Assembly (NCBI RefSeq): GCF_017431965.1
Contig: NZ_JAFRKB010000025.1
Location: 1-64,000 of the forward strand
Reading direction: 5' to 3'
Length of the DNA: 64,000 nucleotides
Origin: Methanobrevibacter sp.
Lineage (GTDB): Archaea; Methanobacteriota; Methanobacteria; Methanobacteriales; Methanobacteriaceae
The position numbers were made by a program, and so were the translations under genes. Under the pieces are notes generated by a model. It saw only the letters and a program-made list of their open reading frames with translations, made no database searches and was not told the DNA's origin. Shown in pieces: positions 44,742 through 51,526 of the stretch. How positions within the stretch are numbered: position 1 is the stretch's first letter; each line of letters starts with the position of its first letter.

Positions 44742-47700
44742 ATGAATAAAAAGGGCTTAATAATGGCTATATTACTACTATTTATTGTAATTTTAAGTGT
44801 AAGCTCAGTATCTGCAGAAGATACAGCATATGCCAATTCATTACAAGAAGCTGATGATATAGCAACAATAAGTGAAACCAACGAAAGTACATCCTCTTCA
44901 GAACAAACCGTTCCTATTGGCTCAGATAGTGATGCTATCCAATCAATAATCAATGGTTTAAGCGATGGAGATACATTAACTTTCGAAACAGGAGAATATA
45001 AAGACATTTGTATTTATGTCAACAAAAGCATTACAATAAACGGAAACGGTGCGACATTAATAGGATATGACAATCCTTCCAAAAACAACACCCCTTCAAT
45101 TATCTGGAATCCTACTTCAAGCGGTGGATATGCAATAGGTAACCTCGCAACATTATATGTTGTGAATGCAAATAATGTCGTTATCCACGGATTGACTGTT
45201 GTTGGAGGAGAAAACAGCTCAGCCACATACTCCAACGCATTGGTTTATGCGACAAAATCCAACAGTTTAATCTTTGAAAACAATACCCTTGACGGATCAT
45301 CCTGGGGATTATACCTACAATATTGTAATGATGGAATTATTTCAGAAAATACCATTCAAAATCAGGCCGTTACCGGCTTGCTGAATTTTGGTTCAGCTAG
45401 AACCATTATTGAAAAAAATACATTTATTAATGCTGCAAACCATGGTATTGATGTAAGACACGGAACCGGACCTAACGTTCAAGTTATCAACAATACAGTA
45501 ATCGGTTCCAAAGAAGGTATCTACTTAATGCACTCAAAAGGACACAGCGCATACAATAACACATTAATCAACTGTACAATCAGTTCCATAAGCTGTTACG
45601 GTTCATCCAATATTGATATCAGAGACAACAAAATGCAAAAATCAAGAATAGGAGTATTATTAGGTGGAGGATACACAAACATTACTATCGGAGAAAACCA
45701 ATTCAGCTTAGATAACCTACCATTCCCACCTACATTCGTATACTATGTCGCTGAAGCAAAAAGCGACTATCAAAATGCGGAAGATATAATGGGTACTTTC
45801 AGTGACAGTACCTCAAACAGTCCTAATTATATAGCATACACCGAAATTGAAGCACCTGCAGACATTTCTATCGACTACAACACAATAATGAAAAAAACAG
45901 GAACTCAATTTACCGTTCCTGAAGAGTATACCAATGATCAAATCCAAACTATGCTTGAAGCAATGGAAGATGGAGACAGCATTATCTTTTATAAAAATGC
46001 AGTTTATACCAATATTTCAATTTATACCGATAAAAACATTAAAATATTCGGTAATAATGCAACATTAATAGGATTTGACAATATTGACTTAAATAATGTA
46101 CCAGAAAAAGTCAGAGCATCCACAACAAGTGGAGGTTATGCAATTGCATACCGTTCAGTATTATACGTCATTAACACTACTGGAGCTGTTGTTACCGGAT
46201 TAAACATCCAAGCTCAATATCCTGGATATGACACCACAAAAGTAGGCGCAAACACTGACGAATATAAGACATCTGGAATTTATGCATCCGAGAATAAAAA
46301 TTTAGTAATCACCGGATGTGACGTTACTGGTGCATCCTGGGGTATTTTCGGACAATACTCTTCAAATAGCATTATTAGCAGAAACAATGTCCATGACATA
46401 TATACAACCGGTATTATGAACTTCGGTTCTCCTAATGCAATTATTGTAGAAAATAACATTACCGATGCCGTAAACCACGGTATTGACACCAGACACGGAA
46501 CCGGACCAAATGTTACAATTGCATTTAACACCATTTCCGGTGCAAAAGAAGGTATCTACTTAATGCACTCAAAAGGACACACTGTCTACAACAACACTGT
46601 TTTAAATTCAAAAATAAGTGGAATTACAGCTTACGGATCTGGAAATGAAAAAATATTTAACAACTCAATTTCCGGAAGCAGAATCGGTATATTGATGGGC
46701 GGAGGATACTACAACGTAACCGTTGGTGAAAATTCATACAATTTAAACTTCTTACCATTCCCACCTACATTTGTAACATACCTCGCTAGAGCAGAAAGTA
46801 TGTATCAAACAGCAGATGATGTAATGAGAACTTACTCTGATAAAGAACTTGTTACCATCGATGTTGACGATGTGGACACTTTACCTCATACCGGCCAACT
46901 TGACTTCACATTAATTGACCAAAATGGTAAAAAGCTAGAAAATACCGAAGTTACTGTAGATATTGATACTCTTAATTCCACCGTTGTCAAAACAGATGAC
47001 GAAGGTAGTGTAAGTATTCCTTTAGACTTAGATTTAGGCGAATACGTTGCAACAATTACTTATGCGGGCAGTGACAATTATGGAGAAACCAGTGCAACCG
47101 CATTTATCTCAGTTGTTGAAACAATCAAAACAAAAACCGAAATTACTGCTGAAGACATTGCTGTTGAATATAACAGTGCCGGCGAATTAATTGCTACATT
47201 AACCAACAAAGAAAATGGCGTAGCCATTAAAGGTGCTAACTTACGTTTCTATGTAAATGATGCAAAAACAACTGTAAAAACAGACAAAGAAGGTAAAGCA
47301 GCACTATCCCTCAACGGATTAACTCCAGACACATACAAAGCAACAATCGTATACGAAGGAAACAGCAAATATAAAGCAGCAACCACAACCGTACAAGTCA
47401 CTATAGAAAAAGCAACAACAGTTATTTCCGCTGAAGACATTATTGTTGAATATAACAGTGACGGCGAATTAGTTGCTACACTAACCAACAATGCAACCGG
47501 TAAAGCAATTACAAGTGCTAATGTACGTATTTACTTAAACGATGTAAAAACAACTGTAAAAACAGACAAAGAAGGTAAAGCAGCACTATTCCTCAACGGA
47601 TTAACTCCAGACACATACGAAGCAACAATCGTATACGAAGGAAACAGCAAATATGAAGCAACAACCACAACCGTACAAGTCACTATAACTAAAGCAACAA

Positions 47701-48233
47701 CAATTGCTTCAGGAATTTATGACACAGAAACCAATGAGATGGTTGTTACAGTAACTAACGCTGCAACAGGAGCAGCCATTAAAAGTGCTAATGTTGTATT
47801 TACTTTAAATGGTGTAAAAACTACTGTAAAAACAGACAAAGATGGTCAAGCTAGACTTTCACTCGGTGATGTGGATCCAAACAGCTTTACTGCCGCATTC
47901 TCATATGGTGGAAACAGCAAATATCTCAAATCAACTGGAAAAATAAGTGCAGTAGTAAATAAAACAACAACAATTATTTCCACTGTCTATGATAAAGAAA
48001 ACGATGAAGTAGTAAGTACTTTAACAAACGCTGCAACCGGCGCGGCCATTAAAGGCGCTACAGTCGTATTTAATGTAGATGGTGCAAAAGTTAGTTATAA
48101 AACAGACGCTTCAGGTCAAGTTAAATATTCAACTGCAGACTTAAGTCCGGATGTGCACTCTGTTGCTAGCTCCTATGGTGGAAACAGCAAATACGCTGGA
48201 TCAAATATAAGCATAAATATTGTTAAAATCTAA
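44742..48233 (+). CDS. Large adhesin-like protein: two beta-helices plus Ig-like repeats
   Basis: 1163 residues. A signal peptide (MNKKGLIMAILLL to SSVSAED, cleavage near 26) is followed by two homologous right-handed beta-helix blocks (about 55-330 and 400-690), sharing RHGTGPNV, KEGIYLMHSKGH and PFPPTFV-type text, and then about five Ig-like repeats (about 706-1163) with KTDKEGKA and YEGNSKY motifs. Unlike the divergent neighbour it has no C-terminal membrane helix and ends ISINIVKI, so attachment must be by other means. GAGGGA precedes the ATG. Presumed role: attachment to host, mucus or other cells. Confidence 0.9.
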   Translation: MNKKGLIMAILLLFIVILSVSSVSAEDTAYANSLQEADDIATISETNESTSSSEQTVPIGSDSDAIQSIINGLSDGDTLTFETGEYKDICIYVNKSITINGNGATLIGYDNPSKNNTPSIIWNPTSSGGYAIGNLATLYVVNANNVVIHGLTVVGGENSSATYSNALVYATKSNSLIFENNTLDGSSWGLYLQYCNDGIISENTIQNQAVTGLLNFGSARTIIEKNTFINAANHGIDVRHGTGPNVQVINNTVIGSKEGIYLMHSKGHSAYNNTLINCTISSISCYGSSNIDIRDNKMQKSRIGVLLGGGYTNITIGENQFSLDNLPFPPTFVYYVAEAKSDYQNAEDIMGTFSDSTSNSPNYIAYTEIEAPADISIDYNTIMKKTGTQFTVPEEYTNDQIQTMLEAMEDGDSIIFYKNAVYTNISIYTDKNIKIFGNNATLIGFDNIDLNNVPEKVRASTTSGGYAIAYRSVLYVINTTGAVVTGLNIQAQYPGYDTTKVGANTDEYKTSGIYASENKNLVITGCDVTGASWGIFGQYSSNSIISRNNVHDIYTTGIMNFGSPNAIIVENNITDAVNHGIDTRHGTGPNVTIAFNTISGAKEGIYLMHSKGHTVYNNTVLNSKISGITAYGSGNEKIFNNSISGSRIGILMGGGYYNVTVGENSYNLNFLPFPPTFVTYLARAESMYQTADDVMRTYSDKELVTIDVDDVDTLPHTGQLDFTLIDQNGKKLENTEVTVDIDTLNSTVVKTDDEGSVSIPLDLDLGEYVATITYAGSDNYGETSATAFISVVETIKTKTEITAEDIAVEYNSAGELIATLTNKENGVAIKGANLRFYVNDAKTTVKTDKEGKAALSLNGLTPDTYKATIVYEGNSKYKAATTTVQVTIEKATTVISAEDIIVEYNSDGELVATLTNNATGKAITSANVRIYLNDVKTTVKTDKEGKAALFLNGLTPDTYEATIVYEGNSKYEATTTTVQVTITKATTIASGIYDTETNEMVVTVTNAATGAAIKSANVVFTLNGVKTTVKTDKDGQARLSLGDVDPNSFTAAFSYGGNSKYLKSTGKISAVVNKTTTIISTVYDKENDEVVSTLTNAATGAAIKGATVVFNVDGAKVSYKTDASGQVKYSTADLSPDVHSVASSYGGNSKYAGSNISINIVKI
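46857..48230 (+). repeat. Ig-like tandem repeats within the adhesin gene
   Basis: Five repeats of 90-94 codons. The most conserved unit contains AAAACAGACAAAGAAGG; it recurs at 47259, 47541, 47811 and 48081 (offsets 282, 270, 270). The second and third units are almost identical over 150 bases, marking a recent duplication. Copy number could change by recombination. Confidence 0.8.
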
Positions 48234-48322: not shown

Positions 48323-48547
48323 TTAGTAAGCATTTTTTCTGCTTACTGCGGTATAAATAATGAATATACCGACTAAAATCAAAACTATTTGTGGAAATAT
48401 TGCAAAGAATATGGCTGGAATAACACCCAATTCTGCAAGTAACCACAATACGCCATAGATAACTATTAAAACACCGAATAAAATAGCTATCTTATAACCA
48501 ATATCTTTTAAGTCATAAAAAGGAAACATACCATTTGGAATAGGCAT
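48323..48547 (-). CDS. Small two-helix membrane protein, 74 aa
   Basis: Not firmly recognised. Two hydrophobic segments (IAILFGVLIVIYGVLWLL, then FFAIFPQIVLILVGIFIIY) around ELGVIPAI, a layout seen in LiaF/DUF5668-like membrane regions. GGTGAT precedes the ATG, which lies nine bases after the rpiA stop, so it is the last gene of the egsA-UPF0179-rpiA transcript. Confidence 0.6.
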   Translation of the reverse strand: MPIPNGMFPFYDLKDIGYKIAILFGVLIVIYGVLWLLAELGVIPAIFFAIFPQIVLILVGIFIIYTAVSRKNAY

Positions 48548-50722: not shown

Positions 50723-50846
50723 AATATCTCCTAAAATTAAATTATACATTAATATATATGTTAGGGATAATTATAAATAACTTTCTTAAAAATTTTTATT
50801 AAAAAAAATAGATGATAATGAGAAATTATTCCCAATATCTAAAAAA

Positions 50847-51116
50847 CTATAAACCCATCGCTTCAAGCATGGATTGAACACCTAAAACAATTATTGCCAC
50901 ACCACCGAATATTTCAATATAATCCGCATACTTAATGGCAATTTTTGTTCCGAAATTACCAATCAATAACCATATAATAACTGCAATAATACTCAATCCG
51001 CCTAAAATATATGGGTCTACATGTGCAACGGCACCCTGTGAAGCTAAAATAAGGTTTTCAATGTTTCCAAAAATAATTAATCCTGTAAATGGAACATACG
51101 GTTTTAAATCAATCAT
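50847..51116 (-). CDS. Three-helix membrane protein, second of a tandem pair
   Basis: 89 residues from ATG 51116, two bases after the stop of its paralogue (GGAAGTG as ribosome binding site). Three helices: about 9-26 (GLIIFGNIENLILAS), 37-55 and 68-84. The motif FGNIENLILASQG in helix 1 is identical in both proteins and has the Glu-x2-Leu pattern of TerC/LysE-type transporters in which a domain is three helices. Lysines sit near the N-terminus and between helices 2 and 3, predicting the N-terminus inside. Not recognised by name. Confidence 0.6.
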   Translation of the reverse strand: MIDLKPYVPFTGLIIFGNIENLILASQGAVAHVDPYILGGLSIIAVIIWLLIGNFGTKIAIKYADYIEIFGGVAIIVLGVQSMLEAMGL

Positions 51117-51117
51117 C

Positions 51118-51405
51118 TTATTCACTTCCTTTAGTTGACCTAATATGTCTTACAGCATCACGAATAGCTATAATACCCAATATTACAATAGCAAGGCCGC
51201 CAATAAATGTGATGTAATTTGCATATTGTATAGCTATCTCTGTTGCAACGGTCCCAATAAATAGCCATATAATAACTGCAATAATACTCAATCCACCTAA
51301 AACTTTAGCATCCACACCTTGAACAACACCCTGTGAAGCTAAAATAAGGTTTTCAATGTTTCCAAAAATAATTAATCCTACAAAAGGTAAAAATTCTTCT
51401 AACAA
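51118..51405 (-). CDS. Three-helix membrane protein, first of a tandem pair
   Basis: 95 residues from TTG 51405, four bases after GGTGA. Paralogue of the next gene: FGNIENLILASQG and LGGLSIIAVIIWL are identical, and stretches of 52 and 30 bases are identical in DNA, so the duplication or a conversion is recent. Here the positive charges are at the C-terminus (RDAVRHIRSTKG) and between helices 1 and 2, which predicts the opposite topology to its partner. The pair may form one six-helix transporter. Confidence 0.6.
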   Translation of the reverse strand: MLEEFLPFVGLIIFGNIENLILASQGVVQGVDAKVLGGLSIIAVIIWLFIGTVATEIAIQYANYITFIGGLAIVILGIIAIRDAVRHIRSTKGSE

Positions 51406-51526
51406 GTTATCACCAATAATAAATTTAAATTTTTTAATATAAATAATATGCTAAAAAAGATATCGAATAGATTTAATACTGATTAAAAACAGATAATTTA
51501 ATATTATAAAAATTATTTTAGGTGAT

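Follow-up and report, generated by a model that had tools for sequence, protein, structure and literature searches.

Adjacent three-helix membrane proteins with opposite predicted topology in gut methanogens: a candidate two-gene carrier of the MntP type

Arguments on how inverted-repeat transporters arose mostly start from the finished, fused proteins. A locus in the stretch of Methanobrevibacter DNA analysed here (64,000 nucleotides, hereafter the window) raises the question of whether two small neighbouring genes, A and B, encode the halves of such a carrier as separate proteins inserted in opposite directions. A first-pass annotation had described them as adjacent three-helix paralogues sharing identical peptides, and had seen in them the arrangement expected for an antiparallel two-gene transporter before fusion, as in EmrE-like pairs and TerC/LysE-type carriers.

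Two adjacent genes and their predicted topology

Both open reading frames were confirmed at coordinates that agree with those of the first-pass annotation (Table 1), as were the peptides FGNIENLILASQG and LGGLSIIAVIIWL, which are identical in A and B, and each of the two chains has three hydrophobic segments. The TTG start of A is preceded by GGTGATAA, and upstream of its ATG gene B has a second possible start, a GTG at 51125, from which the frame is open. The junctions were tight or overlapping in all 78 pairs measured, and translational coupling of A and B is likely. No Rfam element was found near the pair, and the closest named relatives of the window DNA are Methanobrevibacter.

Table 1. 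Features of the A/B locus (positions in the window)
Feature	Position	Strand	Description
Gene A (upstream)	51118..51405	minus	95 aa, 3 TM, predicted N-out/C-in; TTG start, TAA stop
Gene B (downstream)	50847..51116	minus	89 aa from ATG, 3 TM, predicted N-in/C-out
Junction A/B	51114..51120	minus	TAA-G-ATG; one base between A stop and B start
GNIEN motif of A	51349..51363	minus	Midway along TM1; helix break predicted here; its Glu corresponds to the Asp of MntP
GNIEN motif of B	51054..51068	minus	B counterpart of the A motif
Ribosome-binding-like GGTGATAAC	51406..51414	minus	5' of A; several relatives have a similar one at this place
Inserted cassette (A+B pair), approximate	50790..51456		Stretch missing between ProS and EgsA in relatives

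The opposite topology proposed for the two proteins was supported by the distribution of their charges. A bias score, defined as the K and R residues of the TM1-2 loop and C-tail minus those of the N-tail and TM2-3 loop, was +5 for A and -3 for B of the window; A has an acidic N-tail, K in the TM1-2 loop and a C-tail rich in K/R, and B has K in its N-tail and TM2-3 loop (GTKIAIKY) and an uncharged C-end. Among the fetched loci there were 84 distinct pairs, one of them truncated and left out, and the bias was opposite in all the 83 that were scored, as expected of adjacent paralogues that are antiparallel halves, with the C-in gene always upstream; these pairs are mutually related and do not count as 83 independent tests. 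In upstream genes the TM1-2 loop and C-tail together carried a mean of 4.1 K+R versus 0.1; in downstream genes it was the N-tail and TM2-3 loop, with a mean of 3.3 versus 0.1. Because of this bias, the positive-inside rule predicts that A is N-out/C-in and that B is N-in/C-out.

A and B belong to a family of gut methanogens that has no Pfam or NCBIfam name; comparison with Pfam, NCBIfam and the PDB sequences assigned no family to them. The profile and alignment built from 45 halves (A1, in which the row of the window's B starts one residue after its ATG) include rows down to 47-60% identity to A of the window; 18 of the 98 columns are invariant, and the Glu of GNIENL is present in 45/45 sequences. 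The conserved polar set amounts to one Glu plus Asn/Gln per half and resembles a cation site. In a search with the profile, 104 of 151 phylum genomes, representing 4 of 20 genera, proved to contain the family, the named loci being from Methanobrevibacter, Methanosphaera or unclassified Methanobacteriaceae, and no homologue was found in 72,556 plasmids and 50,697 phages.

The paired arrangement claimed for the window extends to the whole family, in which pairing is, at the level of sequence, obligate: copy number was even (2, 4 or 6) in 99 of the 104 genomes, that of the window carrying a second A-B pair on its contig C38. In two of the odd-copy genomes (G053 and G072) one copy lies at a contig end, in G071 the fifth copy is a spurious match within a 2267-aa frame, and in G106 the order is A-B-B in tandem; among the even-copy genomes, the six copies counted in G078 include two fragments of one broken copy. 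The sole lone homologue found, in G058, is a B with a short in-frame internal deletion, so that neither a pair of equal topology nor a lone homologue devoid of bias, either of which would have spoken against the proposal, was seen. In the A-B-B array (L211, G106:C10, 1206-2248) B is tandemly duplicated beside the pair. In the lone B (L212, G058:C54, 1446-1739) the deletion lies before TM3, and the gene is possibly decaying after loss of its partner.

Age of the duplication, conversion and a natural fusion

The exact repeats between the two genes had been attributed to recent duplication or conversion, and of these two causes only the second agrees with our results. The repeats themselves are real: at a register of 295 nt, 180 of 248 bases match between A and B, and the longest identical runs, given before as 52 and 30 bases, were measured as 53 nt (51032-51084) and 30 nt (50970-50999). 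In a tree of 161 halves, built from few columns, A and B form the two sides of one branch (support 99/96, 100% of bootstrap trees), and the A/B split is, as read from this tree, one old duplication common to the Methanobrevibacter and Methanosphaera rows. Where A and B have identical residues, the fraction of shared codons is 0.501 within a genome versus 0.468 across genomes, and the within-pair codon identity was reached by none of 1000 re-pairings. The excess lies mostly in the GNIEN block, where 17/17 such codons are identical in the window. Codon sharing within genomes, taken together with the old split, therefore points to conversion and not to recent duplication as the source of the identical stretches. 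Both genes are under purifying selection, with dN of 0.04-0.08 and dS of 0.9-1.9 against three relatives, dS being near saturation; this and the re-pairing result speak against a product of chance. Because conversion acts here on a pair of proteins inserted in opposite directions, it also makes it possible to test which few residues determine topology.

The search for a fused six-helix homologue, which had been suggested as a check, was successful. In a rabbit-gut Methanobrevibacter metagenome-assembled genome (contig CANQZY010000001.1, 192 kb), locus L088 is a single in-frame gene of 196 aa from ATG that contains both halves with no stop between them; the linker is hydrophilic and about 28 residues long, and the K/R biases of the halves are +7 and -3. 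This fused two-domain homologue of antiparallel halves comes from one metagenome-assembled genome, the copy in G096 being the same contig and no second case. The gene families that flank it are those around the separate pair in five relatives (L091, L106, L107, L111 and L113), and the pair was therefore fused in place, or the reverse occurred. With three helices per half, the two halves of the fusion would be oppositely oriented if the helix count is right. In this family of gut methanogens, separate pairs and a related fused gene thus occupy one and the same place in the chromosome; it is small enough for topology mapping and co-expression, and the natural fusion makes it a good case for studying the evolution of mirror-symmetric transporters.

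These data also bear on the reading that A and B are independent homodimers, adjacent merely through tandem duplication. Antiparallel homodimers of dual topology are known, the UPF0016 singletons being an example (PMC4067407), but in the present family the bias is strong and fixed in each gene of the 83 pairs, with no dual topology, lone genes are essentially absent and the fusion L088 exists, all of which make this reading very improbable.

Kinship to MntP and comparison with known carriers

Profile comparisons with HHalign support a relationship between B and the C-terminal half of MntP (MntX, PF02659, DUF204/UPF0059), an Mn2+ exporter. The B profile scored 35.5 against the C-half of 30 archaeal MntP proteins and 36.9 against that of a set of 8 archaeal and 8 bacterial ones (probability 87-90%), and in the same two tests the halves of MntP scored 37.9 and 59.7 against each other. 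Scores of the B profile were 13.4 or 11.2 for the MntP N-half and 12.9 for reversed MntP; LysE, with 21.4, was the next best of 26 control families, and the best of 25 families of neighbouring genes reached 20.6. The match is local, covering 39-57 columns, mainly TM3 and the preceding loop, and it rests on B, the A profile being not above background (MntP N-half 22.5, C-half 20.6, LysE 20.5, unrelated control 20.1). When the family profile was used for a loose search of 12 genomes without the family, it matched nothing but two MntP genes, at E 0.036 and 0.13. In a forced full-length alignment, the I-E of GNIEN falls over the I-D of the MntP motif SIDAFAVG, so that GNIENL differs from MntP by the conservative change of Asp to Glu and by ENLILA in place of DAFAVG. 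Archaeal MntP carries its K/R in loops 1-2, 3-4 and 5-6 (28/30, even loops over odd), which is the charge order expected if A corresponds to the first half and B to the second. We therefore regard A and B as quite probably kin to MntP.

Membership in MntP proper is another matter. The PF02659 HMM matched none of the 45 members in Pfam at E<=0.1, short of the family cut-off, there was no sequence match to MntP in Pfam, NCBIfam or the PDB, the kinship showing up in profile-profile comparison only, and at the position of the invariant Asp of TM1 and TM4 (DAFA/DAFAVG) 45/45 sequences carry Glu. Because the defining HMM and motif do not match, A and B are not filed as MntP here. Most carriers of the pair, the genome of the window included, also have an ordinary MntP, and the pair is therefore no replacement of MntP and adds a function. 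On both contigs of G125 with an A-B pair (L213 and L214) an MntP gene lies about 1-1.6 kb away from it; the MntP frame of L214 is broken, its end running into an adhesin-like frame, and it looks truncated or rearranged.

Structure prediction was consistent with a six-helix arrangement. AlphaFold2 gave six helices for the natural fusion (16 rows; mean pLDDT 80.1, pTM 0.74), and for a pair of type 1 translated across its stop codon (9 rows) the values were 76.6 and 0.70; a single-half alignment was set aside, since MAFFT had stacked both halves on the first. In both models the first helix of each half (TM1 and TM4) is broken at GN-IEN, and the MntX paper proposes extended segments with the invariant Asp in the same two helices of MntP (PMC3182930). 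Foldseek found no match in the PDB at E<=0.001, and together with VIA-align it yielded weak MFS-half- and ZIP-like matches, not above unrelated helical-bundle models; the lack of MntP among these matches is uninformative.

Taken together, A and B resemble MntP in their 3+3 helices of inverted topology (predicted for A/B), in the acidic residue found midway along both TM1 and TM4, in the order of charges and in the similarity of its C-half to B; they differ from it in being two genes, in having Glu for Asp and no DAFAVG, in being missed by the MntP HMM and in coexisting, in most genomes, with a true MntP. Where MntP has all its helices in one chain, there are two chains in the 84 distinct pairs and one chain in the single fusion, the inversion being predicted. 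The MntX paper postulates an ancestral three-TM repeat dimerising in inverted orientation, for which no example is given there (PMC3182930).

The relatives named in the first-pass annotation fared less well. Repeated three-TM units are also found in TerC/Alx and LysE, members of the LysE superfamily that export metals or amino acids, yet their profile scores lie at background (TerC 9-14, LysE 20-21) and MntP lies above it. TerC scored 9.2 with B and 13.8 with A, against 14.3 and 11.5 for reversed TerC. Both TerC and LysE had also been considered as the closest kin on a D-N/E-N motif seen by eye, and both were rejected on these scores. An EmrE-like pair is contradicted by the three hydrophobic segments per chain, since SMR proteins of the EmrE type have four helices, and by the lack of any SMR match in Pfam. 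MarC was absent from all 151 genomes of the phylum, and Pfam DUF7010, which matches A at E 0.0014 and 6/45 members below the cut-off over TM2-3 only, was set aside as low-level membrane similarity. A parallel sugar transporter of the SemiSWEET kind would fit the size and number of helices, and 8/45 members weakly match NCBIfam SemiSWEET_2 (best E 0.008; cut-off 80 bits); this reading is hardly credible, since profile-profile scores are at background (10-12; 12.1 for B), no PDB sequence matched at E<=10 and the opposite charge bias argues against a parallel pair.

Pairs and fusions of opposite-topology halves are already known. The cyanobacterial UPF0016/GDT1 pairs are, like A and B, adjacent three-TM paralogues with an opposite charge bias sorted by gene order and with fused forms, and yeast was complemented only when two such partners were expressed together (PMC4067407). 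A/B differs from them in being archaeal and in that no lone dual-topology form was found, and the motif E-x-G-D-(K/R)-(S/T), by which alone UPF0016 was compared, is absent from alignment A1. DUF606, likened here by description, likewise forms pairs and fusions of opposite-topology homologues, with five helices per half in contrast to A/B (PMC3962082 and PMC4067407; five helices, PMC4067407). These two are the only families with pairs and fusions named in that 2014 paper (PMC4067407), and to them A/B would add an archaeal variant. No paper on the A/B family or on a split MntP was found in the literature searched, most subscription journals lying outside its coverage.

Genomic context and possible function

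The pairs fall into two paralogue groups, type 1, to which that of the window belongs, and type 2. Type-2 pairs lie in surface-glycan operons, with the order rfbA-rfbC-rfbB-A-B-TagB/F-GT2-GT2 in 14 of 80 loci and GT1-pair-TOD1/MUCI70-GT2 in another 6 of 80, the fusion L088 being among the latter. Pfam was run on the TagB/F-like gene (a glycerophosphotransferase) and on the GT and TOD1-like neighbours; the other three are taken to be rfbA, rfbC and rfbB from their sequences. The second pair of the window's genome (L035, C38:22000-27500) is of this type, the end of its B adjoining the TagB/F gene. Gene order in the rfbA-rfbC-rfbB/TagB-F/GT2 operon is strongly conserved across the 14 loci (L093 and L099, for example). 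Type-1 pairs have no fixed neighbours; among the genes around them, those of ABC2 type (cluster 3) and adhesin-like ones (cluster 2) turn up repeatedly.

This context lends itself to two further readings. The substrate of an antiparallel heterodimer could be, instead of a metal, some building block of surface polymers, such as a lipid-linked sugar or a sugar alcohol phosphate, as one paralogue group sits in surface-glycan operons (14/80 and 6/80 loci) and the LysE superfamily includes lipid exporters (PMC4608589); we think this unlikely, since pairs of type 1, to which that of the window belongs, lack a fixed glycan context, a large substrate would hardly fit between halves of only about 90 aa and one Glu plus Asn/Gln per half resembles a cation site. 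Somewhat less likely still is that A and B transport nothing and instead help, as a scaffold in the membrane or as an assembly factor, the enzymes encoded nearby or surface proteins; the tightness of the type-2 operon with TagB/F-like and glycosyltransferase genes and the roaming of type-1 copies speak for it, and the acidic residue strictly conserved inside the broken TM1 of both halves, as well as the MntP-like profile, against it.

The reading that we prefer, and hold to be moderately probable, is that A and B make up an antiparallel two-gene carrier of MntP type. A, inserted N-out/C-in, and B, inserted in reverse, would join as an antiparallel heterodimer and so match the six helices of the Mn2+ exporter MntP, A as counterpart of its N-half and B of its C-half, and coupled translation would keep the halves at a 1:1 ratio. 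The break of the first helix of each half at GN-IEN would bring two Glu and their flanking Asn to mid-membrane about a pseudo-twofold axis, and we infer that the glutamates face each other there. The ligand of this putative site would be a cation, and the kinship with MntP makes a divalent metal such as Mn2+ the likeliest one; an alternating-access cycle would export it. The sequences themselves show the pairing, the charge bias, the conservation and the natural fusion, and profile and model lend support to the kinship with MntP and to the helix break; we infer the heterodimer, the binding site, transport as such, its substrate and its direction.

By analogy, the type-2 pair may supply or balance metal for metal-dependent glycosyltransferases, a role proposed for TMEM165 in the Golgi; TMEM165, a UPF0016 protein of the LysE superfamily, is tied to Mn2+ homeostasis and glycosylation disorders (PMC7380456). 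A fuller history is doubtful at present, in which gut methanogens turned an MntP-type half, by duplication or re-splitting, into an obligate heterodimer that was homogenised by conversion and fused once in place, one paralogue being recruited to glycan operons where it may supply or balance glycosyltransferase metal; A/B would then join DUF606 and UPF0016 as a further such family. Since MntP occurs widely and the pair in a restricted lineage, a re-split or re-duplicated half is as likely as the pair before fusion that had been suggested.

The position of the window's pair indicates that type-1 pairs move. It lies between a gene taken to be proS and an Fe-ADH_2 family gene, presumably that of glycerol-1-phosphate dehydrogenase, EgsA. 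In 24 of 29 same-genus loci the pair is missing from this site and the two flanking genes are adjacent; none of the 29 has the pair there, the other 5 having no ProS in the stretch examined. In the alignment the intergenic region of the window is longer by a cleanly bounded insert of about 0.67 kb, and similarity to related pairs ends at the gene ends. The empty site in relatives and the clean insertion therefore suggest that type-1 pairs relocate; no mobile element was found. Near the edges of the cassette, AT-rich arms (50792-50813 and 51423-51444) are 82% complementary, perhaps by chance. Elsewhere in the window, 48323-48547 encodes a small membrane protein of 74 aa with a sub-threshold LiaF-TM match, and 44742-48233 a large secreted protein with tandem repeats that is adhesin-like by eye, of a class that also recurs beside type-1 pairs in other genomes.
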